Source: Gautieria morchelliformis
Lineage: Eukaryota > Basidiomycota > Agaricomycetes > Gomphales > Gomphaceae
Direction: 5' to 3'
Assembly (NCBI GenBank): GCA_015179125.1
Contig: WHVA01000121.1
Coordinates: forward strand, 185,162 to 249,161
Length of the DNA: 64,000 bases
The notes under the pieces: generated by a model
Told to the model about the DNA's origin: nothing
The model's database searches: none
Seen by the model: only the letters and a program-made list of their open reading frames with translations
Program-made: the position numbers and the translations under genes
Shown: positions 27,908-64,000 of the stretch, in pieces
Position numbering within the stretch: the first letter of the stretch is position 1
How the letters are laid out: every line of letters begins with the position of its first letter

Positions 27908-30900
27908 ATGCGGAACCTTGCCTTTATAATTATTGCCCTCATCACGACCACGCAGGCCAACGATTGGTCTGTACCATGCACCTCCGGCTCATGTCAGTAC
28001 CAGTGGACAGGTAACAACAAAACAACACCTGGTTCCATGATTCTCGTAAGTGGACACTCCATGATCTTAGAATATAGATACTCATACAGCGCCCATAGAC
28101 GGGTCCGAATCAAGTGCTTTCTGGTGAATAGGAATTACAAGATCGCTTCCTTTCTCATCACCCTGATCTCCCTCCTCAGATATCACGCCAGCTGCCGGCT
28201 GGAATGTCCTGGATTGTGACCCCAGCTGGTCCAATGGGACACACGCAGTCCGCATGGTGTGCTCGGGAACTCCTCAGCAGATGTCGCTTTGTAACCATCT
28301 GTTCGACCACGGAGGGGCCCCAGACACCGTTGTCCGTCTTCCCCAGAATGTTTGTACTGATATGCCACTCTCAAGGTCAAATCCATGCTGATATTGCACA
28401 CCAAGTGCGGAGCTGGGCCCTTTGCGCACGTTAAGAGTGCATCCAATGCAACGAACACAACTGTGCCCTCACATCTTACTTCTAACGCTACTTCAACTCC
28501 CGGCAACATGTATAGCCTTGTACTTGATTACGATTTTGAAAGTATCCCCGCGTCGTGCGTTTTGTATTCGCCCTCTTTCGTGCTTGACCTGACGACAACA
28601 TTGGATTGACATATCCTGGAATTCAGCCGAGGTACCCTGTCACTCGCGCTTGCTTCCTCCACTTCCCCGACGAGGCCACTTACTCGCAGAGATTTGGCTT
28701 ATCTTCGGAAGCGTGGTCGTGCACGCAACTTTGCGCGCCACCTTGAGCGCGACCTCGAAATGCGCTTTGGTATACCCGGTATACATTTGCCTCCTGGTGC
28801 GTCACACGCATTCCATTGATTGAAGACACCGAGGTATTAATTTGATGTAGCGCTCACGTCGGTGGTGGGTGACGGTAAGCTATCTCTTTATTTTTATTTT
28901 TATCAAGATATACGTGCTCATGAGACGCTATCGGGTGATATAGTCACATCAGCGGCGGGAGACGGTAAGTGTTATCTAGTGATCCATTCATTATTTCTAA
29001 TCGCTTTCTAAATTTACGAACTTTTGAACAGTCACTTCTGCTGCCGGCCATGCTGCTTCAACCGTTGCTTCAGTGGCTACCCAAGCTGCTTCAACTGTTG
29101 CTTCTGTCGCCACCCAAGCTGCTTCAAGCGCTGCTTCTGTTGCCACCCAAGTTGCTTCAGACGCTACCTCAGTCGCCAGCCAGGCTGCTTCGGTTGCTAC
29201 CTCAGTCGCTTCTGGCGCGGTTTCTGTCGCTTCACAAGGTAATTTCAAATCCTGGTGTCCTGTCTAGACTTATACTAATCCATTCTATGACTTCTGTCTC
29301 CATCTGTCGCCACTGCCGTTGCTGTAATGCTCTATGAAAAGTCGGACAAGGTAGCTCATACTTCCTTTCAGACCGCGTGCCTCTTACCCTTATGCTTCCT
29401 CTGCTTTTTAGTGATCCAAAATACGACTAGAGTCGATCAGTCCCTGAATTCCAGCGTAATCCCCATCACGCTTTCGCAAAGTTTCACGCTGCTCCACACA
29501 TCCCTCGATTGTTCAACAAGCCAGAGTTCTATCTCAGCCACCCTTGACATCGGCGTGGATGCAGAGATAGATGCCCAGGTCCAGTTTGGGTCCACATTCG
29601 TCGGAACGCTCGTTCCCCTTAATCTTGAGGATGTATGTGCTCCATATTCCCAATAACATGCGTGTACTGAATCAGAATGGCAGATATCGCTTTCTGCAGG
29701 TAAGCAGTTTCGTGGGCCATCGTCCCCATATGAGCCTGTTGAGTTTATGGAACGTGCCATGTTGTAGCCCTCGACGGAGATATAAATGCCATTTTTAACA
29801 TTCAAGCGCAAGCCCAGGTATAAAATATTCGATCTTTGCTCGAACCTATTTCTTACCACCCTGCAGGGAACATTCGACACTGGAGTCCTTCAGCTATACC
29901 AAAGTGGGCTGCCGGGACTCAGCATTCCAGGAATTTTTGACCTTGGCCCTGTGTTCACCATTTCAAGCCAACTTCAAATGGAAAACCTCAATATGGAAGC
30001 GAATATGAACGTCACCACCGACTACAAATTTTCTAATCTTGGACTGGTGTTCCCTCCGGGCAAGGGACAGAACTCCGGCACGGCGCAGCCCAATAATGGA
30101 GGAAATGGTCAGCAGATCAACATGGTGCACCACAGAGCAACAGTTACTAACCGACCTCTCAATTCCAGCATTGAAACTTGCTGCATCACCGCCTGCTGTT
30201 GATGTTTCAGGCCAAATCATTCCAAGTTTCATCCCCCGTGTACGTGGCTTACTTCCATGTTCTCAGCCTTCGGGAGTTCAAATGTTGTGTCCTTAGTTCG
30301 ATTTTGGCATCATTCTGGGCAATGGCTTTTTGCAAGCCACAGTCTTCATGAACGCGGATATTTCGGGAACAGTAGATTTGAGTTTCAAAGCTGGCCAAGC
30401 AAATACCACCACCGTCGATCCGAATGCTGGGAGTGGAAACTCCACCATTCCTTCCCCCGCATCCGGCAATGGAACGCAGTCCGGAAACGGTCCAGCAAAC
30501 TCTACAGCGAATGGCAAATCCACTATTCCCGTTCCACCATCTGGCAACGGAACGTCTTCCAAACGGGCCGTTGCATCGCGTGGATCAATCGCAAACGAAA
30601 AGCGTGCCGCAGTCAGTATAGACGGTTGTGTCAACGTGACGGGTGCCATAAACATCACCGGCGGCATGGTTGGGACGCTAAAGCCGCTGTTCAGTGCCTC
30701 TCAAACCTATGAGGTTTTCTCAACGTCTTCATTGCTGACACAAGTGAGTCGCGTGGTTACGCATGTCTCGTTGCTTCGCTCACTCAAGCTGCTCTGAAGA
30801 AATGCTTTGGCAATGGAAAGCCCCCACTTGTCAAAGCGAGAGCTATTTCTGGCGGATCCCCTGCGGCACGTGCATATGCGCTTGTCCACAGAGGTCCCAA

Positions 30901-31075
30901 CGTGGAGCATGTCAGTAGACTTCCCAGCGTAGAAAGAAGAAAGGCGCCTGCTTCCAACCGTCCGAACGAGGTCAAACCCCAACAGTCTAAGGGGAGCAAG
31001 AGCAGCCTGTCTTGCGGCATCGCAGGGGGCCTCCCGTCTGTTGACCCGCTTTCGTTGCTGACGAACCTTCTTTGA
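27908..31075 (+). CDS. secreted DUF7223-type protein with Ala/Ser/Val repeats
   Basis: A many-exon gene for a secreted protein of a mushroom family (DUF7223, from memory). MRNLAFIIIALITTTQA is a signal peptide, followed by a Cys-containing N-domain (SVPCTSGSCQY, then GWNVLDCDPSW and SLCNHLF near 28200-28300, and CGAGPFAHV near 28410). Then come LVLDYDFESIP, RRDLAYLRKRGRARNF (about 28690) and small exons coding TSAAGD (28851-28963). A repeat of the type ASVATQA runs from 29040 to 29240. The C-terminal domain has SATLDIGVDAEIDAQVQFG, TGVLQLYQSGLPGLSIPGI, FNADISGTVDLS-like and CVNVTGAINITGG motifs; Asn-x-Ser/Thr sites suggest glycosylation. It ends LLTNLL and TGA at 31073-31075. Probably a cell-surface protein; function unknown. 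Its last third is duplicated at 41028-42121. Confidence 0.75.
28851..29240 (+). repeat. repeated 21-24-nt exons and Ala/Ser/Val-coding tandem repeat
   Basis: Exon 28851-28874 and exon 28943-28963 (21 nt), plus the first 21 nt of the exon from 29032, encode the variants LTSVVGD, VTSAAGD and VTSAAGH, each joined in the same phase. The third exon then runs into a 33-bp-like repeat coding ASTVASVATQA and variants to about 29240. Confidence 0.7.
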
Positions 31076-31336
31076 CCTATTATCCTGACTGTATGGTACA
31101 CAATTAATTCTTAATTGCTTGACCGACGCCAAGCGGTTTCTGTTGCTATTTCCTTGTGCTTATCCCTGAATCTGGCCCACATACTCATAAGTTTCTCGGT
31201 GTTGTGTATAAAGGGACGGGGAAGGGTGATGCTTTACCGGGCAAGAAGCATACTGATGTGGTGGGGGTTCAGAGTGGGAAGTGGGGAATGGAGAGGCCGC
31301 AGAGCAACAGCCTGCGCTGGGGGGTGGGTGTTTTCG
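30237..31336 (+). repeat. segmental duplication, source copy
   Basis: From GTGTACG before ACTTCCATGTTCTCAGCC to GGGTGGGTGTTTTC this segment matches 41028-42121 in the same orientation at high identity. It covers the last exons and 3' flank of the DUF7223 gene. The right border coincides with the start of gypsy copy B sequence. Confidence 0.9.
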
Positions 31337-40893: not shown

Positions 40894-41027
40894 TAGTGAT
40901 GGGCATGGCCGGCCTGGGCCAGGCCGAGCCGCCAATAGGCCGGTGCCAGGCCAAAGCCGTTGGCGCATCCGGCTCCATGGCCCGACTCAGGTTTTGCCAG
41001 GCCAAAACCGAGTCAGGAAGCCGTGGC
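40894..41027. mobile_element. putative hAT-like end with GC-rich subterminal repeats
   Basis: The sequence TAGTGATGGGCA at 40894-40905 recurs at 54950-54961. Both are followed at once by GC-rich, self-complementary motifs (here GGCCGG, CCAGGCC, GGCCTGG repeated over about 130 bp). Such ends are typical of basidiomycete hAT elements. The matching opposite end, TGCCCATCACTA, was not found, so the assignment is tentative. Confidence 0.4.
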
Positions 41028-42121
41028 CCGTGTACGTACTTCCATGTTCTCAGCCTTCGGGGGTTCAAATGTTGTGTCCTTAGTTCGATTTTGGCATCAT
41101 TCTGGGCAATGGCTTTTTGCAAGCCACACTGTTCATGAACGCGGATATTTCGGGAACAGTGGATTTGAGTTTAAAGCTGGCCAAGTAAAGACCACGACCG
41201 TCGATCCGGATGCTGGGAGTGGAAACTCCACCATTCCTTCCCCCGCATCCGGCAATGGAACAGAGTCCGGAAACGGTTCAGCAAACTCTACAGCGAATGG
41301 CGAATCCACTATTCCTGTCCTACCATCTGACAACGGAACGTCTTCCAAACGGGCCGTTGCATCGCGTGGATCAATCGCAAACGAAAAGCGTGCCGCAGTC
41401 AGTATAGACAGTTGTGTCAACGTGACGGGTGCCATAAACATCACCGGCGGCATGGTTGGGACGCTAAAGCCGCTGTTCAGTGCCTCTCAAACCTATGAGG
41501 TCTTCTCAACGTCTTCGTTACTGACACAAGTAAGTCGCGTGGTTACGCATGTCTCGTTGCTTCGCTTGCTCAAGCTGCTCTGGAGAAATGCTTTGGCACC
41601 GGAACGCCCCCACTTGTCAAAGCGAGAGCTATTTCTGGCGGATCCCCTGCGGCACGTGCATATGCACTTGTCCACAGACGTCCCGACGTGGAGCATGTCA
41701 GTAGACATCCCAGCGTAGAAAGAAGAAAGGCGCCTGCTTCCAACCGTCCGAACGAGATTAAGCCCCAACAGTCTAAGGGGAGCAAGAGCAGCCTGTCTTG
41801 CGGCATCGCAGGGGGCCTCCCGTCTGCTGATCCGCTTTCGGTGCTAACGAACCTTCTTATCCTGACTGTATGGTACACGATTAATTCTTAATTGCTGGAC
41901 CGCTGAACCGACGCCAGGCTGACGTTTCTGTTGCAATTTCCTGGTGCTTATCCCTGAATCTGACCCAGATACTCATAAGGTTCTTGGTGTTGTGTATAAA
42001 GGGACGGGAGGGGTGCTGCTTTATCGGGCAAGAAGCATACTGATATAGTGGGGATTCAGAGTGGGAAGTGGGGAATGGAGAGACCGCAGAGCGACAGCCC
42101 GCGCTGGGGGTGGGTGTTTTC
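41028..42121 (+). pseudogene. duplicated 3' part of DUF7223 gene
   Basis: This is a near-identical copy of 30237-31336. It lacks the upstream exons and signal peptide. One base is deleted near 41170 relative to the source (TTTCAAAG versus TTTAAAG), and a 9-base deletion near 41857 removes the original stop, so the last frame runs on to 41891. It still encodes CVNVTGAINITGGMVG. It cannot make a full protein. Confidence 0.88.
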
Positions 42122-42317
42122 TATATACCACTTGTCTTGCTACGTGATTATAGTAGTGCCAGTGCAAATACTGAAAGCCTGAAACACATTGCGGTAATTA
42201 AGAACTATATCTGTACATTGCACGCTTCAGTGTACTAGTAACTATTCGCTAGCTATAGGTTGAAGAGTTATGTAGACTTATAACAATGATCTTGTATTTT
42301 TCTCGAGATCTCATCGC

Positions 42318-42420
42318 ATAGTCATAACACGTACTGCACTTACACGTACGCGACCGGGCGTATCAACTTACGTCCCTCCCAGCCCCGCGCGTTCTGTCAT
42401 CTGTGGTTAATTCAGGGATG
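42318..42420 (+). repeat. junction sequence X, left copy
   Basis: This piece, from CATAGTCATAACACGTACT to TTAATTCAGGGATGC, matches the reverse complement of the centre of the inverted repeat (about 45465-45590) with short gaps. It sits directly before the truncated dehydrogenase fragment. Confidence 0.7.
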
Positions 42421-42422
42421 CA

Positions 42423-42749
42423 ATGCTAGGACAAGGTTTTGCTCAGGCACGAATGTGGCTTGCTAAGTCTGTTCACCCTCGAGACTCCGTGGGTTTTATA
42501 ACGTTAACAGGCGAAATCGAAGACGACGTCCGGGCATTCATCAGAGGGATGCCTGACATCGTTTCCGCCGACGCCTCGGGTCTCCATACAACAGTTGTCA
42601 ACAACAACGCGGAGGTCGAAATGTTGTTGATGGTCGAACCATCAGTTGATCCTGAATTTCTAGAACAGGACGGTGGTGAGGTAAAGTGGGGTATGGCACG
42701 AAGGTATGTTCTGGCAACACCAAACATTCCGAATGGCAGGTTTCAATAA
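42423..42749 (+). pseudogene. 3' fragment of quinate/shikimate dehydrogenase
   Basis: The frame encodes QGFAQARMWLAKSVHPRDS, EIEDDVRAFIRGMPDIVSAD and a tail. It aligns with the C-terminal end of the complete dehydrogenase at 48476-49580, starting at the residues after GIEAMI. The right copy stops at NVEVDR; the left copy reads on for some 40 residues after small indels. With no N-terminal or nucleotide-binding part it is a dead fragment produced by the rearrangement. Confidence 0.88.
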
Positions 42750-43358
42750 ACGCATAGAACGACACCTATGTGGAGTGGACGAAACAGATGCGGTATGCGG
42801 ATCGTGATACATGCATCATGCTTCTTGCGATTATTTAAAACCATGAGTCAAGTCTTTCAAACAAAGGAGCCTCACACAGTGACACAAGTAGCATGTGGAT
42901 ATATACCAGGCCGATCCTACAGGAATGCAGTGCTCGAAGCCTGCTGTTCAGTATTCACACTATCCTGACAAACAGCCAGAGAATTTTATATTTTGTTTCC
43001 CGACGCTGCGTTACAATACGGTGGCACTAAATCTCCCGGAACTACGCGGAGTATTAGGAATTACTGAGTACTCCGCAGGACATCTCGGCCAGATTACTTT
43101 GGTATTATGTTTCTCTCTGCCGCCAAGCCGAATGTGAGGCCGCTACCAAAGTTGAGCAAGTTGTAGACAGTAGTTTGTTCGAAGAGGAACTGCTGACTTT
43201 GAATCAAGGCATGTTCGGAATATATGTCCCCGACTCCAGGCACTTCTGGGGGTCGCGAGATTACTGAAAAGTATTTTCATCATATATGGACAATGGACGG
43301 AGAGAAGAGTCTTTTATCTCGAGGAGCTCACCAGCCATCTAACTCCTGAAGCCTGATC
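42750..43358. promoter_or_regulatory. upstream region of left permease
   Basis: About 600 bases between the dehydrogenase fragment and the permease start, mirrored by 47733-48475 in the right arm. It should contain the permease promoter. The phrase CATCTCGGCCAGATTACTTTGG and neighbours are shared by the two arms; no binding site was identified. Confidence 0.5.
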
Positions 43359-45221
43359 ATGCAACTGTCTTTGAAGGAGGACCGTCCAACACCGAAAGAG
43401 GTCTATAACTTTCGAATGTATCTCTTTGCTGTCATGGTCAGCTTTGGGGGTACTGAATTGGGTTACGATTCTGGATTTATTGGTACGTCAATAGTCTCCC
43501 TCTAACATTCCTCCTACTCCATCTGATAGTCACGTCGAATCTTCAGGTTCGACTCTTGCATTACAGTCGTTCAAAGACGCATTTAGAATGAACAACTTAT
43601 CCACTGCAGCAGTGAACAATATATCTTCTAACATCGTGAGCGTGTTTCAGGGTGGTTGCTTTTTCGGCACGCTTCTTGCCCTTCCTATATCCGACCGCTA
43701 TGGCCGTCGCATATCCCTTATTGTTTCCAGCATCTTTTTCATCATCGGCAGCTTGTTTCAGACTTTTGCAAATGGAAGTTTGAACATGATGTATGCTGGC
43801 CGAACACTCAATGGCTTGGGCGTTGGCAGTGCGAGCAGTGTCATACCCGTATTCATAGCCGAGTTCTCACCTCCCGCAGTCCGAGGACGCGTCGTAGGCA
43901 TTCATGAGGTTATGTATCAAATTGGAGCCCTTGTGGGGTAAGTGTAACTGAGTGGTTTATATTCTCTCCACTGACACGTGAAGTCAGATTTTGGATCAAC
44001 TACGGCACCGCGTTGCACATTCCGAATAGCTCCACAGCGCAATGGCGAATCCCGATCGCTGTGCAAATTATTCCTGGGAGCCTTCTTTTCGTATCTATGT
44101 TTGTTGTGAGAATTCTTTTTTCTGCCTCAATGTGCCTCACTCACGATGTGCAGGTATGGGAGAGTCCTCGATGGCTCGCCCAGCGTGGGCTTTCCAACAG
44201 ATGCCTATCCACACTCTCTCGGGTTCGAAAGCTGCCAAGGGACCACCCATACATATTGGCTGAGATGCAAGACATGCGCTCACAGCTAGAACGTGAAGAC
44301 AAAGTCGGCGGCGGAGCATCATATTGGCAACTCCTCAAAGAGCTCTCAAAGCGCGGCCATCGCAACCGAGTCGGACTAGGCGTCGGCATGATTGTTTTTC
44401 TAAATATTTCTGGGGCAAGTGCGATAAATTACTACTCACCCACGATCTTCCGAAGCCTCGGTGTTGCTGCTCCAGATGCCGCACTTTTTGCGACTGGCAT
44501 TTATGCGGTTGTGAAACTGGTTGTCGGCGTCATTTTCCTGGTGTTCCTCGTTGACCGTATGGGCAGACGTCGTGTGTTGCTCATAGGCTCCGTAGGTTCG
44601 GCGGTGTCGATGTGGTATATCGGGGTGTACATATTCCTTGGGAAACCCTCGCCAACCGATGCTGGTAGGTCTCCAGGTGGCTGGGCAGCTATCGCTGCGA
44701 TCTATATCTTCGGGATATTCTATTTTGCGAGCTGGAATGGCATTGCGTGGATCATCCCAAGTGAAATATTCACTGTACGGACTCGAACTCTGGGCGTGAC
44801 AATAAGTTAGACCTACTATCACCACGCTTGCACTCATTAACCGCTTTTCCATTCGCGCAGCAATTATGACTCACTGGTAAGATAATTCTAAACCTTCTCT
44901 CAAGCGATCTTCTTGTCAAATGCGTTACTCACGAATTCCAGGCTGATGCAATTTGCCATGACGAAATCTACTCCATTTATGATCACAAGCCTTGGTTATG
45001 GAACCTATTTCTTCTTTGGCGCGTCTATGTCGATATCTTTTGTTTGGGTCTGGTTTGTTCTTCCGGAGACGAAGGGATTACGCCTCGAGGATGCGGGCAT
45101 CATATTTGGTTTGCCAGAGAGTCATAACAGTACACCCGAAGAGAAATCACAACAGCAACCGGAGGATAGTGATGAGAAGGATACAAATGTCGAACCGACC
45201 ATCGAGAGTCTGGATATATGA
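43359..45221 (+). CDS. MFS quinate-permease-like transporter, left copy
   Basis: A sugar-porter-type MFS protein, closest to fungal quinate permeases (QutD/Qa-y), expected in the plasma membrane for proton-linked quinate uptake. Six exons (43359-43482, 43547-43937, 43988-44105, 44154-44805, 44861-44876, 44942-45221) give 1581 nt and 526 residues. Visible family marks are GYDSGFIG, DRYGRRISL, GRTLNGLGVGSAS, PAVRGRVVG, WESPRWLAQRGL, LVDRMGRRRVLL, WIIPSEIF and PETKGLRLED. In helix 7 the motif reads FLNISGASAINYYS, whereas the right copy has FQNLSGINAINYYS, so a Gln and an Asn of the substrate site are replaced. The frame is open throughout. It faces its twin tail to tail. Confidence 0.9.
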
Positions 45222-45411
45222 TGAATGGTAGTCATTGTAGTCATCGACTTGCCACCGGAGTACCGGTTCTATCAAGATATCTTTCTCAGGTGCACCACGG
45301 CACTGTACTGGCGGCGAGAACACGAGTACGTGATCGTGATTTGGAGTTAAGAACAGCCGGACACTTTTAAGACCGTGTATGACGGCCTGTAGGAAGTCGG
45401 GTCGCGTGTTG

Positions 45412-45600
45412 ATCTGTCCACCTACGCGCGGTCGGTGCATGCACCTGCCAATTAACAGAGAACGTGGAGAGCTGAGGTCGAACCTCCCTGAGGAATGAAC
45501 CCCAGAATGGGGCTGGGAGGGGCGTACGTTGATAAGCCCGGTCACGTACGTGGTAAGTGCAATAAGTACGTGTTATGACTATGCATTTAGGTTGGGGGTT
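45412..45600. other. centre of inverted repeat (junction sequence X, right copy)
   Basis: The unpaired loop between the arms. Its reverse complement contains CATAGTCATAACACGTACT, CACGTACGTGACCGGGC and CCCTCCCAGCCCC, all also present in order at 42318-42420. No gene. It contains palindromic CACGTACGTG. Confidence 0.75.
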
Positions 45601-45873
45601 GACACGCGACCCGACTTCCTACAGGCCGCCATACACGGGCTTAAAAGTGCATGGTATGTAGGTTCAATTATAGAGACCGCTAGCCAGATCCGAACACCGC
45701 AGTATTCCTTCCACACTGAGTGTCATATATGATCGAATCATTCCGGCCGTTCTTAGCTCCTAATCACGTACTCGTGTTCTCGCCCCTACAGTGCTGTGTT
45801 GTACCTCAGAAGGATATCATTGATAGAACCGGTACTCCGGTGGCAAGTCGATGACCACCGTGACTACCATTCA

Positions 45874-47732
45874 TCATACATCCAGACTCTCGATGGTCGG
45901 TTCGACTGCATCCTTCTCATCACTATCCTCCGGTTGCTGTTGTGATTTCTCTTCGGGCGTACTGTTATGACTCTCTGGCAAACCAAATATGACGTCCATA
46001 TCCTCGAGGCGTAATCCCTTCGTCTCCGGCAGAAGGAACCAGACCCAAACAAAAGATATCGACATAGAGGCACCAAAGAAGAAATAGGTTCCATAACCAA
46101 TGCTTGTGATCATAAATGGAGTAGATTTCGTGATAACAAATTGCATCAGCCTGATATGCGTGAGTAACGCATTTGATAAGAAGATCGCTTGAGAGAAGAT
46201 TTAGAATTATCTTACCATTGAGTCATAGTTGCTGCTCGAACAAGCGGTTAATGGGTGTGAGCGTAATAGTAATAGTAGGTCTAACTTATTGTCACGCCCA
46301 GCGTTCGAGTCCGTACAGTGAATATTTCACTTGGGATTATCCACGCAATGCCATTCCAGCTCGCACAATAGAATACCACGAAGATATAGATCGCAGCGAT
46401 AGCTGCCCAGCCACCTGGAGACCTACCAACATCGGTTGACGAGGGTTTCCCAAGGAATATGTACACCCCGATATACCACATTGACACCGCCGAACCTACG
46501 GAGCCTATGAGCAACGCACGGCGTCTACCCATACGGTCAACGAGGAACACCAGGAAAACAACGCTGACAACCAGTTTCACAACCGCATAAATGCCAGTCG
46601 CAAAAAGTGCGGCATCTGGAGCAGCAACACCGAGGCTTCGGAAGATCGTGGGTGAGTAGTAATTTATCGCATTTATCCCAGAGAGGTTTTGAAAAACCAT
46701 CATGCCGACGCCTAGTCCGACTCGGTTGCGATGGCCGCGCTTTGAGAGCTCTTTGAGGAGTTGCCAATATGATGCTCCGCCGCCGACTTTGTCTTCACGT
46801 TCTAGCTGTGAGCGCATGTCTTGCATCTCAGCCAATATGTATGGGTGGTCCCTTGGCAGCTTTCGAACCCGAGAGAGTGTGGATAGGCATCTGTCGGAAA
46901 GCCCACGCTGGGCGAGCCATCGAGGACTCTCCCATACCTGCACATCGTGAGTGAGGCACATTGAGGCAGAAAAAAGAATTCTCACAACAAACATAGATAT
47001 GAAAAGAAGGCTCCCAGGAATAATTTGCACAGCGATCGGGATTCGCCATTGCGCTGTGGAGCTATTCGGAATGTGCAACGCGGTGCCGTAGTTGATCCAA
47101 AATCTGACTTCACGTGTCAGTGGAGAGAATATAAACCACTCAGTTACACTTACCCCACCAGGGCTCCAATTTGATACATAATCTCATAAATGCCTACGAC
47201 ACGCCCTCGGACTGCGGGAGGTGAGAACTCGGCTATGAATACGGGTATGATACTGGTCGCACTGCCAACGCCCAAACCATTGAGTGTTCGGCCAGCATAC
47301 ATCATATTCAAACTTCCGTTTGCAAAAGTCTGCAACAAGCTGCCGATGATGAAAACATTGCTGGAAATAATAAGGGATATGCGACGGCCATAGCGGTCGG
47401 ATATAGGAAGGGCAAGAAGCGCGCCGAAAAAGCAGCCACCCTGAAACACGCTTACGATGTTAGAAGATATATTGTTCGCTGCTGCAGTGGACAAGTTGTT
47501 CATTCTAAATGCGTCTTTGAACGACTGTAATGCAAGAGTCGAACCTGAAGATTCGACGTGGGTATCAGATGGAGTAGGAGGAATGTTAGAGGGAGACTAT
47601 TGACATACCAATAAATCCAGAATCGTAACCAAATTCGACACTCCCAAAGCTGACCATGACAGCAAAGAGATACATTCGAAAGTTATAGACCTCTTTCGGT
47701 GTTGGACGGTCCTCCTTCAAAGACAGTTGCAT
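45874..47732 (-). CDS. MFS quinate-permease-like transporter, right copy
   Basis: Mirror copy of the left permease with the same exon layout, including the 16-nt exon near 46216-46231. It starts at 47732 (MQLSLKEDRPTPKEVYNFRM) and ends with ESLDV and TGA at 45874-45876. Family motifs are as in the left copy: GYDSGFIG, DRYGRRISLI, PAVRGRVVGIYEIMYQIG, WESPRWLAQ, DRMGRRRALL and PETKGLRLED. Helix 7 reads FQNLSGINAINYYS, keeping the Gln and the SGxN of the sugar-porter binding motif, so this is the more likely working copy. It lies downstream of, and in the same direction as, the complete dehydrogenase. The pairing of transporter and dehydrogenase supports quinate as substrate; shikimate or a related acid is possible. 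Confidence 0.92.
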
Positions 47733-48475
47733 GATCAGGCCTCAGGAGTTAGACGGCTGGTGAGCTTGTCGCGATAAAAGAAACTTCTCTCCGTCAGCGG
47801 CCCCATTCCCATGATGAAATACTTGAGTCAGTACACTCGTGACCGAAGTGCCTCGGCCCGCAACGGTTGCCGAAATCGTGAACATATTTAACGTGCCTCG
47901 ATTCAAAGTCCGCAGTTCCTCTCAGAATAAACTACAGCAACTCTGTATCACTTTCTCAACATTGGTAGCGATCTCACTCACTATACGGCTTGGCGACAAA
48001 GAGAACCATAATACCAAAGTAATCTGGCCGAGATGTCCTGCGAAGTTCTCAGTAATTCCTAATACTCCCGGCTCCCGGGCATAGTTCCAGGAAATTTAGT
48101 GCCACCGTATTGTAACGCAGCATTGGCAAATCAAGATATAAAATTCTCTGGCTATTTGTGAGGATAGTGTCAAGAGAATCATGAATAGCAGGCTTCGAGC
48201 ACTGCACTCCTGTAGGCTCGGCCAGGAATATATCCATATGCTTCTTGTGTGAGGCTCCTTTGTGTCGAAAGACCTGGCTCATGTTTTTAAATATTCGCAA
48301 GAGGCATGGTGCATGTATGCCGATTCTTCCACTCCCCTTAGGCGACTTTTATGCGTTTATTGAAACCTGCCATTCGGAAAGTTTGGCGTTGCCAGAACAT
48401 ACCTTCGTGCCATACTCCACTTTGCCTCACCACCCTCGTGTTCTAACAATTTAGGATCAACTGATGGTTCGACCA
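47733..48475. promoter_or_regulatory. region between dehydrogenase and right permease
   Basis: About 740 bases mirrored by 42750-43358. It should hold the 3' end of the dehydrogenase transcript and the permease promoter. No gene, and no site identified. Confidence 0.5.
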
Positions 48476-49580
48476 TCAACGATCGACCTCCACGTTGTCG
48501 TCGTGTGGAGACCCCTCGTCGGCCGAAACGATGTCAGGCATCCCTCTGATGAATGCCCGGACGTCGTCTTCGATTTCGCGTGTTATAAAATCCATGGAGT
48601 CTCGAGGGTGAACGGACTTAGCAAGCCACATCCGTGCCTGAGCAAAACCTTGTTCTATCATTGCTTCTATGCCAGAGACCACGATCCAGCCAGCTCCCCC
48701 AGCATGCAGCATGAGCGGTGTAGTTCGAGGCTTGTAGCACATGTCTAAAAAGACACGCTTATTCCCACCCGAGCTGGAGGACGGAGAGGAGAAAATCCTT
48801 CGTGCGCACACATCAGCGGCAACCTCTTCCGGTGTGACGGGAGCGACAGCAGGTATACAGCCAACAGCGATTTGGACGTTGACGGCATCGGCGGGATCAG
48901 AAATGGGAACGCATGGGATTTGTGGAAAGTGTACGACTAGAGCCTCGAGCTCGGACATGTCACGGCCCACAAGGTATATGGGCGCGCACTCCAGCGATGC
49001 GAGTGCGTAGACGGCAGCCCGTGCTGCACCGCCACCTCCGAGTACGAGACCAGCAACACCAGAAACTACTTGTCCAGCAGCGGGTTCTGTGCATGGAGCT
49101 GGTCCAAGATATTGAAGGAGGACAGTTCTAATGCCAAGCCAGTCACTGTAACATGGGGGGAGGAGGGTGTCGGGATAGACTCGATTGTACGAGAGTGATT
49201 TCATACGTGTTAGTTCCAACGAGCACCTTTTTATCTCGCTCATCGCATTCTTGCACGAGAGTATTCACGGCGCCAATGGCGCGTGCTTCGTCGGTCACCT
49301 CGTCAAGAATACACCCGATGGTAACTTTCAGCGGCATTGTCACACTCGCCCCACCAAAGTCCTTCGCCCGACAGATCTCACGTATCTGTCTCCCAATGTG
49401 AGTCACTGGGGTCAACTTGTATGTTCTGTCATGGAGTCCCAGGCGGGAAAAGATATAGTTGTGGAAAGCAGGTGAAGCTGAGTGTGCGATAGGGAATCCG
49501 AACAGGTGGTATACTTCCTTGGAAACTAGAGGTGAAAGGGATGTTGGTATCATGGTCTGCAACGGCAAAGAATCTGTCAT
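48476..49580 (-). CDS. quinate/shikimate 5-dehydrogenase
   Basis: NAD(P)-dependent enzyme that oxidises quinate to 3-dehydroquinate or interconverts shikimate and 3-dehydroshikimate, cytosolic. The start MTDSLPLQTMIPTSL is at 49580. The substrate-binding N-domain shows YHLFGFPIAHSASPAFHN (SxS motif) and FGGASVTMPLK with the catalytic Lys. AIGAVNTLV follows, and VGTNT leads across an intron (about 49216-49149, GTATGA..ACAG) to DWLGIRTVLLQYLG, giving the GTNTD motif. The dinucleotide loop is LVLGGGGAARAAVYAL, and further marks are YLVGRD and DMCYKP. The C-terminus has GIEAMIEQGFAQARMW. It ends at 48476-48478. All key motifs are present. A truncated copy lies at 42423-42749. Confidence 0.92.
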
Positions 49581-56941: not shown

Positions 56942-57177
56942 CCAGCTGATATTGAGGATAAGGAATTGGGCAGGTCGGGGTAACACCTCCTTTTTGACTT
57001 GTATCAATATTTTCGAGTTTCATCACATCAGCAAAAAAAAAAGGAATTATCTATAGGGGTACTGCTTATATACCCAATTACGATACGGAGTCTGAAAGCA
57101 AGGGTTGGGAGCATTGGCTTTCTCAATGGTGCAGGAAGCCTGGCCCAGACCATGGCCCTAACAGATAATGACCATCA
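56942..57177. other. intergenic
   Basis: Short stretch ending with the left copy of TCA that flanks the CACTA-type element. No gene. Confidence 0.4.
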
Positions 57178-57503
57178 CACTAGGTGCAAGTCACTGTTTG
57201 TTTACCATAACCCACAGCATTAAATAGTGAAAAAAGAGGAAATCTCATAATAATTTGACACTATGGCAAATGATGAAGAATTCTTCCTTGCATATTATGC
57301 AGTGAATATGATTTATTTTGTCACAATTTATTTCTTATAAATGTTCATCTGGTTTTATTCAGATTTTCTTGATGTTCTAAATTGTAAACAAAAAGGATGG
57401 ATTCTTTACCATTTCCATAGTTTCAAATTATTACCAGATTTCCTCTTTTTTGACTATTTCTTGCTGTAGGTTACAGTAAACAAATAGTGACTTGCACCTA
57501 GTG
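57178..57503. mobile_element. CACTA-type MITE, 326 bp
   Basis: The two ends are long inverted repeats of about 90 bp: each, read inward, begins CACTAGGTGCAAGTCACT and continues through AAAAAGAGGAAATCT and TAATAATTTG. The termini start with CACTA and are flanked by TCA on both sides (57175-57177, 57504-57506), a 3-bp duplication as made by CACTA/CMC transposases. The interior of about 140 bp is AT-rich and non-coding. Confidence 0.88.
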
Positions 57504-58294
57504 TCAGTACCACTTCTAATAGAGGTGCAATGCGCACCAATCATCAGGTACCAGCCTGATGGTGGGGGAGATGGTGAATGATGTGAACGTGGAGGGAGAT
57601 CTGATGAATCATCTAAACAATGAACAAAGGTAATGGAAACATTCGAAGGGTGATGAGTTGAGCAGTGGGAGATCACACCAAAATAAACAAGTCATGACAA
57701 CCATGCACTGGATGTCCTGCGTGCAAGTTTGAGTGTCAGCATATGTTGCGGGAATGTGAGTGTGGGCACCTCAAAAACCACCAACCTCAAACACCTCAGG
57801 GTGTGCCACTTGGGCTACGGCATGCCATACAGGCTGTGTGCCGGTCCCACTTTGTACTCTTTGAGCACAATGGCACTTGTGTCAGGGGAACCCCCTTCCA
57901 AGTCTATTTCTGAGCTTGGCTTCAGTCCCAACCTGAGGTCTGAACATTGCCCAAGCACATCTCAAATGCAAAGCCAAGCTCCCAAACCTTTGGATTCCAC
58001 AGTAATCCTGGAGTGGCATCAGGGACATAGGTAGGGTGATGTGTGTCAGGCAGTAGCCATGGAGGCTTGGACTTATATCAGGAGTGGAGTGGGTGCCCCT
58101 GTCTTCGATCAGGGGTCCAGGGTATACAGGTAGCATGCTGGCAGCAGGGATCCACAGCTTTTCCGCATGAGTTCTGCTGTCTAGGAAGTGTTGCCCTTAC
58201 AGCAGGAAAAGCTCTTCCCTAAGGACTGGTAGTCGGGTCGCACAGTAACACCATAGGCAACTTCAGCATCAGTGACTCTGAGTCAGATTTCGGA
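57504..58294. other. leader region of gypsy-like element
   Basis: No gene. The stretch directly precedes the gag relic and has the same base composition, so it probably includes that element's LTR or untranslated leader; LTR borders could not be placed because no second copy is in the window. Confidence 0.35.
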
Positions 58295-61310: not shown

Positions 61311-61428
61311 ATGGGCCAACCGCTGCACTATTGAATCCTAACCCTTCGTGAAGCATTCATCGTGCAGATCTCTTATTCGACAGGCAACACTTCCTCTTGA
61401 CGCATATAGCATTTTCTTTTCTCTCGCG

Positions 61429-64000
61429 ATGACTTCGTCCATCACGTCATTTATCCCTGAGAACTGGGCGAGACCCAAGTTCTCTAAGCTATTGTTAGGG
61501 GGCGAGAACTACAATTCTTGGTCCAGTGAAGCAAGGGCTCTTCTCGCTACGAGTGGCCTATGGAAGTACATCGATCAGAACGATCCTTCCTCTGTCTCCC
61601 CTCCTAACTCCCTTCCGTCTGAGAAAGCGCTTTGGACTGCGAAGAACACCACTCTCGTTTTCACTATTCAGCTCATGATGGATCCTTCTCTCCATCACAT
61701 CGTATCTGCCTGCACGACCGCCGCTGACGCCTGGACCAAGATCCATGACTCCTTTTCCACCCTCGGCCCGATGCACCAAGTCTCCCTCCTGAAGCGCGCA
61801 CTCTCCACTCGCTTCACTCCTGGCATCGATATTGATGTGACACTCCTCGCGCTCGAGCATACCATGAAGGACATGTTTGCCGCCGGCCCGATAAAGGAGG
61901 ACGACTGGATGATCATGATTTGTCTTAATGCCCTTTCTCATGATTTCTTTACTCCCATACGCGAGCAACTCGAGGGTATCCTCACCTCCACCAAGGACGG
62001 CATCTCATTTGATGGCCTCAAGGCTCGCTTGCGTTTCGAAGCCTCGAAGGTCCGCCATGCCAACCAAGCTGTTGCTGCCAAGGAAGCCTTGGCTGCTGTC
62101 TCCTCAAAGAAACCTCGGGTGATCTGCTCTAACTGCAATAAGCCCAGTCATCCTAAGGAGAAGTGTTGGCGCCCCGGTGGTGGTGACGAAGGGGGAGGCC
62201 CCAGAGCCCGTGCGAAGAAGGAGAAAGATCGTGAAAGCCCTCTCGCCGCCGCTGACGCTTCTGTTGTGGGGGAGACCAAGACTGAATCCACCAACATCGC
62301 TGCCGCCAAGCGACGCGTATCATCCACGACTGCGCCCTCCCCTCCTATCTCGTTCTACCAGCCAGACGACCACCTCTATGAGTCTGACTGGTCCTTCGCG
62401 TGCCTGGACAGGCTTGACCCAGCGTGTAGCGTCGACTGGCTGATGCATAAGCACGACACGAGGTCCCCAGAGCTGGCTCTTGCGGCGATAGACTCTGTTC
62501 CCCGATTCCTCGACTCCGGAGCGTCTATACACTGCACCCCGTGTAAAAGCGACTTCAGTAAAATCACACCCATCACGCCCCGTCCCATAAAAGGGATGAA
62601 TGGCTTCATTGCTGAAGCTATCGGCATAGGTGATGTAACGATGAACACTCTGAGTGGCCGTTCTATCACCCTCCGCGATGTCCTCTATGTCCCTGATGCG
62701 GCAATCAGACTCATCTCTGTAGGAAAGCTCGGAGACAACGACAACTACGTCTCCGTCTTCTCTAGAGATCAATGTCGTGTTTACAATCCGGAGAAAACTG
62801 AGGTACTTAGGGGCTGGACAGCTTCCGGCGGGTTGTACTTCGTCCCCACGGCCTCCTCCGCTCACGCCTACGCTAACATCACAAGGGCTCCTGCCAGTCT
62901 TGAGACCTGGCACAAACGCCTGGGTCACGTCAATTACCCCTCAATCATCGCGATGGCGAAGAAAGGTATGGCTACAGGTATGCCTACCGACCTCTCCTCC
63001 ATGCCAAAGGTTTGCAATCACTGCATTCTCGGCAAACAGGCAAAAACACCGGTACCAAAAACCCGCAAAGGGAAGAGAGCTGAGGGTACCCTAGACATTG
63101 TCTTTTCTGACATCACCGGGCCTGAGGATGTACCTGCCAGTGGTAAGTTTTACGCCCTGAACTTCATAGACGACCACTCTAGACAAACGTGGACATACCT
63201 TCTTGCTAAGAAGAGTGATGCACTCAACGCGTTCATCGAATGGCAAGCACTTGTTGAGCGACAATCCAAGCGCACCGTCAAAAAATTTATTACCGATAAT
63301 GGCGGGGAATATACCTCTAAGCTCTACGAAAAGTTCCTTATCAATCATGGCATTGAACACCTCCTTACCGCACCGTACACCTCTGCAGAAAATGGTGTAG
63401 TAGAGCGGAGTCACCGCATGCTCATGTCCAGGGCCCATGCGATTAGATCGGACGCCAACCTCCCTGCCAGTCTGTGGGGGGAGTGCATACTAACAGCGGT
63501 CTACTTAAAGAACCGAACCCCCACTAAAGCCCTCAAGGACAAAACACCATATGAGGTGTGGACGGGTGAGAAACCGGACCTCTCACACCTATGAGAGATT
63601 GGCTGCAGGGCGTTCGTCCTCATACAAAACCGCCATATCGCAAAGATCTACAACCGTTCGATTGAGTGTGTCTTAGTCGGATACTCACTAAACTCCAAAG
63701 CCTACCGTTGCTATAACCGGTCTACTGGCCAGATAATCACATCCCGCAACGTGATCTTCATCGAATCGCAAGATAATGATCCACGCCCGCTACACCCTGG
63801 TCTCGTCGTGGGGCACAATGCAGAGAGTGATAGCGATGACGAGGATTCCTACCCCAGAGAGGATGCGCAGGGAACGGACAAAAGGAGTGCGCCAGGTGAA
63901 AACACACACGGCGCTGCTGCAGGGGATGTACCAGATGTCGGAGGACCGACTCCTCAACCAGGGGGTGTCTGTCAGGGGACACCCTGTTTTCCATTTCCAG
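61429..64000 (+). mobile_element. Ty1/copia gag-pol, one stop codon, truncated by window
   Basis: From MTSSITSFIPENW a single frame runs to a TGA at 63592 and resumes directly to the window end. Gag has LLLGGENYNSWSSEARALL and the UBN2-like region; the zinc knuckle is CSNCNKPSHPKEKCW (about 62130). The protease is FLDSGASIHCTP (about 62510). The pre-integrase domain is WHKRLGHVNYPSI with CNHCILGKQ, and the integrase shows VFSDITGPE, FITDNGGEYTS and ENGVVERSHRML, which carry its D,D,E triad. After PDLSHL the TGA replaces an expected Arg, and EIGCRAFVLIQNR continues. Domain order protease-integrase marks it as copia. Reverse transcriptase and RNase H lie beyond the window. It is the youngest-looking element here. 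Confidence 0.92.

Follow-up and report, generated by a model that had tools for sequence, protein, structure and literature searches.

Two copies of a gene for a predicted sugar-porter permease, permL and permR, lie as an inverted pair in a 64,000-nucleotide stretch of the genome of the fungus Gautieria morchelliformis (the window; positions 185162-249161 of contig WHVA01000121.1, here C140, in a 122-Mb genome of 1113 contigs), and the right one adjoins a shikimate/quinate-type dehydrogenase gene. The left copy of this segment is circularly permuted relative to the right one, identity between the two permease genes is uneven along their length, and their divergence is biased towards one lineage; a circle, a conversion event and any change of substrate are what we infer from this. 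The best explanation, to which a rough probability of 0.57 may be given, would be a ring duplication reinserted inverted beside its source, followed by gene conversion and unequal divergence. For the circle route taken alone, the chances would be a little over one half.

Comparison of the window with itself (BLAST) gives one dominant inverted repeat, in which 42417-45361 pairs with 48667-45742 at 89.3% identity over 3001 columns, with 30 gap openings. This bears out the first-pass annotation of this DNA, which had described two reverse-complementary arms of about 3 kb and whose end points, 42421 and 48664, deviate by no more than 4 bases. Its further claims, that each arm holds a complete six-exon permease and that only the right arm holds the full dehydrogenase, stand as well: both permease genes splice to open frames (526 and 525 amino acids, aa), and the left arm has just the 3' end of the dehydrogenase gene, which in the right arm encodes 347 aa. 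Thus, the observation is sound, and the metabolic reading that accompanied it is partly supported. The genes are as follows, the permeases being assigned to the major facilitator superfamily (MFS) by prediction:

43359..45221, plus strand: permL; exons 43359-43482, 43547-43937, 43988-44105, 44154-44805, 44861-44876 and 44942-45221; 526 aa, sugar-porter MFS type
45874..47732, minus strand: permR; exons 47732-47609, 47544-47154, 47103-46986, 46937-46286, 46231-46216 and 46150-45874; 525 aa
48476..49580, minus strand: shikimate/quinate-type dehydrogenase; exons 49580-49207 and 49145-48476; 347 aa; contains the point, at about 48667-48670, where the left copy stops
42417..42749, plus strand: dehydrogenase 3' remnant of the left copy, without exon 1 and most of exon 2, within the stop-to-stop frame 42411-42749

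Beside the arms, the same self-comparison detects two small inverted pairs, 45362-45409 with 45602-45649 (96%) and 42316-42386 with 45509-45584 (88%), which the first-pass annotation had overlooked and by which the repeat is seen to be a circularly permuted copy and not a plain palindrome. Read in reverse, the left copy follows the right side through 45602-45649 (96%) and 45742-48667 (89%), and then goes back to 45509-45584 (88%); block by block, left 45409 to 45362 answers to right 45602 to 45649, 45361 to 42417 to 45742 to 48667, and 42386 to 42316 to 45509 to 45584. Three blocks are thus found in order on a circle made from the donor, as in a circularly permuted duplication, and the two ends of the copy fall almost together on the donor, not overlapping (45602 and 45584, with 17 bases between). 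On a circle of about 45486-48670, the left copy is one single run except for a 92-base gap and the junction stretch. The right side is taken as the donor because only there does the dehydrogenase gene continue intact past 48667. The pieces involved are these:

42316..42386, minus strand: piece a, outermost part of the left copy; matches 45509-45584 in inverted orientation, 88% (BLAST)
42387..42416, no strand: junction stretch; weakly similar, with gaps, to about 45486-45508
45362..45409, minus strand: piece b, innermost part of the left copy; matches 45602-45649 in inverted orientation, 96%
45410..45508, no strand: probable neighbour of 42315 before the insertion, from block order and join scoring
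45509..45584, plus strand: piece a', putative source of 42316-42386
45585..45601, no strand: putative opening point of the circle; 17 right-side bases lacking in the left copy
45602..45649, plus strand: piece b', partner of 45362-45409
45650..45741, no strand: stretch present on the right only; 92 bases, with no match elsewhere in the genome

When pieces a and b and the other non-coding pieces were searched against the genome, no match elsewhere was obtained, and therefore piece a gives no sign of being a dispersed repeat.

Under the proposed mechanism, the original would be the right side, in which the dehydrogenase gene is followed by the permease gene, both on the minus strand. Some 3.2 kb of it (about 45486-48670), with the whole permease and only the 3' end of the dehydrogenase, would have been joined end to end as a circle, opened within 45585-45601, and inserted inverted about 80 bases from its own source, between the present 42315 and 45410, which would have adjoined each other before the event. 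Such an insertion would leave the left dehydrogenase truncated, and would place outside the palindrome on the left a piece that lies inside it on the right. Afterwards, gene conversion would have passed sequence between the permease genes, over 43930-44392 at least, and the left gene would meanwhile have lost constraint or taken a new course.

Both permeases match PF00083 (Sugar_tr) over its full length, with 397 bits for permR and 362 bits for permL (Pfam cut-off 22.3), and permR reaches 398 bits for TIGR00879 (cut-off 237.8); judged by these scores, they are sugar-porter MFS proteins. They are identical at 486 of 526 aligned residues, with GT-AG introns in both. Their placing among quinate permeases is putative, based on the neighbouring gene and on a possible N-terminal resemblance to QutD, qa-y and QupA. 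Along the genes and their flanks the following stretches stand out, the last of them in transmembrane segment 7 (TM7):

43197..43316, plus strand: stretch upstream of permL; identity between the arms 0.67 and 0.47 per 60 bases
43930..44392, plus strand: putative gene-conversion tract; the arms differ at 3 of 463 sites and share identical introns 2 and 3
44393..44419, plus strand: cluster of changes in permL TM7; FLNISGASAIN in permL, FQNLSGINAIN in permR

Identity per 60 bases lies between 0.47 and 0.73 in 43137-43316 and rises to 0.92 and 1.0 at the start of the permease. Introns 1, 4 and 5 differ between the arms, and the 3 differences of the 463-site core compare with 53 in the remaining 942 sites of 43503-44911. 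When permR is compared over the same range with two transposon-borne copies of the gene (described below), the core and the rest give 58 and 100 differences for copy L009 (Fisher's test versus the arms, 1.8e-6) and 56 and 108 for copy L010 (7.6e-6). So few differences in any window of 463 sites were reached by none of 5000 site shuffles and by 2 of 5000 block shuffles. Moreover, codons 171-290 contain 0 synonymous differences over 86.8 sites, versus 25 over about 286 sites elsewhere. Conversion between the inverted permease arms would be the best reading of this core, given that its silent identity is far above that of its surroundings.

The changes within 43503-44911 were assigned to one branch or the other by comparison with a third party, the eight transposon copies that remain when L011 is left out, each over its own aligned range alone. 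This places 8 synonymous and 23 nonsynonymous changes on the permL branch, and 9 and 4 on that of permR, with 2 unassigned (Fisher 0.015, coding counts); intron changes number 3 for permL and 6 for permR, with 1 unassigned. As nonsynonymous sites outnumber synonymous ones by about 3.2 to 1, these counts suggest near-neutral change in permL and constraint on permR. At the 56 sites where the arms differ, the third-party copies, here including L011, match the right arm in 32 cases, the left in 19 and neither in 5. The sugar transporter paralogues L049-L051, with stretches 26-40% identical, are too distant for this purpose. In TM7, permL is without Q294 and N300; the Q and the second N of the permR motif are common to the plant sugar transporter STP10 in an alignment, and we take them to be sugar-binding residues in such porters. 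The open frame and GT-AG introns of permL are kept; its divergence may mean either decay or a new specificity.

The right dehydrogenase carries Shikimate_dh_N and scores 203.7 bits for the shikimate dehydrogenase model TIGR01809 (Shik-DH-AROM), over its cut-off of 196. With the quinate/shikimate models NF009390 and NF010631 it obtains 39.5 and 26.6, far under their own cut-offs, and its best matches among solved structures are four AROM polypeptides. It is thus of the shikimate/quinate family, and quinate is a candidate substrate. A search of the genome with its DNA matches only the gene itself and the left remnant. Genome-wide domain searches were run exon by exon, on an assembly that may be incomplete. 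They find Shikimate_dh_N twice, at this locus and in a 776-aa frame on contig C148, and the sole match to type I dehydroquinase (PF01487) is in that same frame, which therefore looks like AROM. For class II dehydroquinase (QutE, PF01220), the search returned 0 matches and 0 candidates. Within the reach of these searches, the set of qut/qa genes is incomplete.

Some origins of the inverted repeat were discarded. An assembly fold-back or mis-joined haplotypes were rejected as the main reading on account of the 11% divergence, the many insertions and deletions, the one-sided truncation and the permuted left copy. Fold-back replication primed at a/a' is excluded by the position of piece a, at the outer and not the inner end of the left arm, and a tandem duplication followed by inversion in place, worked out by hand, would place a' on the left side of the inverted part, contrary to what is observed. 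Repeat-induced point mutation was also rejected as a source of the divergence, arm-to-arm transitions in the flank 42417-43350 being near equal in a plain count (C>T 15, G>A 15, T>C 15, A>G 18).

Several points weigh against the ring followed by conversion and unequal divergence. Reinsertion in inverted orientation so near the source is not expected of a free circle, no target-site duplication is evident by eye at the insertion, and the 92-base gap at 45650-45741 demands one further insertion or deletion. Although the join 48670|45486 scored highest among 15 tried, the similarity that extends piece a towards 45486 (42387-42412) is weak, its score being reached by 189 of 5000 shuffles. As regards conversion, the core was picked after looking at the data, and its longest identical run, 196 bases, taken alone was reached by 128 of 20,000 shuffles. 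The polarisation is a three-way comparison, unrooted, limited to 43503-44911 and at many sites made with three closely related copies; with an unrooted tree, part of the permL branch could be older. Finally, serial template switching at one replication fork (microhomology-mediated break-induced replication, MMBIR, or fork stalling and template switching, FoSTeS) would yield the identical three junctions without a free circle. The path would consist of a strand switch near 45410/45602, copying to about 48670, a jump to about 45486, copying to 45584 and return to its own template. Template-switching products usually sit beside their source, as this one does, and the two strand flips are at most about 200 bases apart. 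However, template switching alone does not predict that the second piece stops 17 bases from where the first begins (45584 and 45602), as an opened circle does, and we regard it as the possible but less probable route. Very improbable, even though it requires no circle and a and a' are mutual inverted copies, is that an older inverted pair a/a' already flanked the site and that a simple inverted duplication of 45602-48667 landed between its members. Two coincidences would be needed, a copy starting 17 bases from a' and ending 30 bases from a; a fold-back at that place would leave a on the inner side of the left arm, when it is found on the outer one; and a/a' have diverged about as much as the long arms (88% versus 89%).

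With regard to what followed the duplication, selective constraint instead of gene conversion could have kept the permease arms more alike than their flanks, and both frames are indeed open, with the right lineage apparently constrained (9 synonymous and 4 nonsynonymous changes). Such an account is improbable, because introns 2 and 3 are identical, codons 171-290 are free of synonymous change, and the transposon-borne copies diverge from both arms about equally in the core and outside it. Unlikely, too, is the proposal of the first-pass annotation that the locus reflects the growing dosage of a quinate-use module. Part of it stood: the permease adjoins an AROM-like dehydrogenase of shikimate/quinate type, and the permease is doubled. 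In Aspergillus niger, moreover, two quinate permeases, QupA and QupB, are described in the available part of PMC12610400 as dividing labour by pH, a precedent for the divergence of permease pairs. Nevertheless, the dehydrogenase is single, PF01220 yielded no candidate, and type I dehydroquinase matched only in the AROM-like frame. Nor is permL an equal second copy, since it has 23 nonsynonymous and 8 synonymous changes against 4 and 9 in permR, a lower Sugar_tr score and lost TM7 residues.

The same permease gene is also found, in pieces, inside transposons. A DNA search with 43500-44500 gave at least 16 matches, namely the two arms themselves and fragments from a further nine contigs (C193, C26, C505, C182, C200, C764, C358, C127 and C756; copies L009-L017). 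None of these nine contigs holds a further functional permease copy, all pieces being incomplete. The part concerned is the following:

46181..47588, minus strand: permease part found dispersed, from inside intron 1 to inside intron 5; elsewhere incomplete or broken

Translated, L009, L010, L011, L014, L015 and L016 contain stops, and the short L012, L013 and L017 do not. Six of the nine fragments start at the same base of intron 1 (47588), and four (L009, L010, L011 and L014) end at the same base of intron 5 (46181). The fragment keeps its introns, so it would have been taken up as DNA. Five of the nine fragments come with the 5' end motif of a dispersed element whose terminal inverted repeats are imperfect, and three have both ends. 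C193 and the 15-kb C26 (L009 and L011) share 99.6% identity over 8.6 kb, flanks included, and may be alternative haplotypes or a recent segmental copy; they were counted as one locus. In all five distinct two-ended elements examined, L009 and L014 with the permease piece plus L022, L024 and L048, the 8 bases of the target-site duplication (TSD) match at 8 of 8 positions. With the 5' end as query, 34 matches were obtained, and with the 3' end 39; judging by their positions, further contigs would hold paired ends that enclose different middles, and of these L022, L024 and L048 were read end to end. In a separate observation, a 3.1-kb segment (L012 1908-5002, L013 1928-5066), 91.5% identical between C200 and C764, joins the permease fragment to unrelated sequence.

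L048, a 7.24-kb relative on contig C160, matches CxC5 (2.6e-8) and CxC6 (5.4e-23), the Pfam cysteine clusters associated with transposases of the KDZ (Kyakuja-Dileera-Zisupton) group. CxC6 matches occur within or beside the family ends also on C415, C342 and C442, and in the whole genome CxC6 (PF18721) gives 85 matches, 83 of them over the cut-off, by which measure KDZ-associated elements are abundant here; these matches, like the intron-rich genes, point to a basidiomycete. A KDZ transposase domain did not appear in the six L048 frames scanned, and no genome-wide search for it was made; the assignment of the element family to KDZ is a placing by association. The fragment-bearing element would be a gene-fragment carrier of Pack-TYPE-like character.

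Other features of the window lie outside these subjects. A direct repeat of about 1.1 kb, 92% identical, occupies 41027-42121 and 30235-31335; one copy stops about 300 bases to the left of the inverted duplication, and immediately left of the other (30235-31335) is a frame, 29786-30199, with weak likeness to DUF7223, under the cut-off. A Copia-type retrotransposon frame of 750 aa is located at 61342-63591, with gag, GAG-pre-integrase and integrase domains, and self-comparison also detects a short imperfect palindrome of about 330 bases at 57177-57504, 72% identical to its own reverse complement.

Taken as a whole, it may be proposed, tentatively and at somewhat less than even odds, that a full gene was duplicated via a small circle reinserted in reverse, that it was partly homogenised by conversion and its binding site remodelled, and that the same gene was independently taken up by KDZ-type elements. 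If this were true, KDZ elements would act as gene-fragment carriers in the Pack-TYPE manner. One transporter gene would here present three fates: an original under constraint, a neighbour that diverges and was in part overwritten by conversion, and broken passengers of transposons. Inverted duplications often keep little trace of their origin, and here a permuted block of 76 bases would keep one, which makes the locus a testable, small-scale fungal case of duplication through a circle, or of its template-switching double. The component parts are of known kinds and their combination is unusual; as an example of gene birth, the locus is instructive, though not without precedent.

Among known systems, the qa/qut cluster of Neurospora and Aspergillus resembles this locus in that a PF00083 permease adjoins a dehydrogenase of shikimate/quinate type, as far as the cluster is described in the portion of PMC12610400 available. 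It differs in its dehydroquinase, since here the exon-by-exon search did not find class II and found type I only in the AROM-like frame. The QupA/QupB pair of A. niger likewise consists of two permease copies with a possible division of labour, but according to the same partial source these are 66% identical and unlinked, whereas permL and permR are 92% identical and belong to one inverted repeat.

As for the transposons, the accessible text of PMC12730594 gives TSDs of 8 bp for Zisupton and a Dileera lineage, a length also usual for hAT, and for the Kyakuja families of Agaricomycotina 7-bp TSDs and no terminal inverted repeats. The element described here is like KDZ in its 8-bp TSD, as in Zisupton and a Dileera lineage, and in the CxC5 and CxC6 of L048, and unlike the Agaricomycotina Kyakuja in having both terminal inverted repeats and 8-bp TSDs. 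Another difference within this comparison is that some short copies here carry a host permease fragment with introns; a literature search of titles and abstract openings found no description of KDZ elements with host gene fragments. The Helitrons of Pleurotus ostreatus are also fungal transposons with host gene fragments, but they are rolling-circle elements (PMC4289320, from the part available), in contrast to these terminal-inverted-repeat elements with 8-bp TSDs.

The duplication itself has its closest parallel in the work of Takahashi and Innan (2020), who, in the sections of PMC7188851 available, regard a permuted donor order (efghijabcd) as the sign of a duplication mediated by extrachromosomal circular DNA (eccDNA), and who cite a case in cattle. 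Other routes are not ruled out there, and caution about complex changes on the same chromosome is expressed for two of their three cases. The permuted block here, with only 76 bases, is under the 500-base minimum used in that study. Their three cases are human, extend over about 20-130 kb and are 95-97% alike, whereas the present one is fungal, measures 3.2 kb and is 89% alike; in two of theirs donor and copy share a chromosome, at distances of 200 kb and 10 Mb, and here the copy is inverted and adjacent to its source. As in those cases (PMC7188851, same sections), the copy is circularly permuted relative to its donor.

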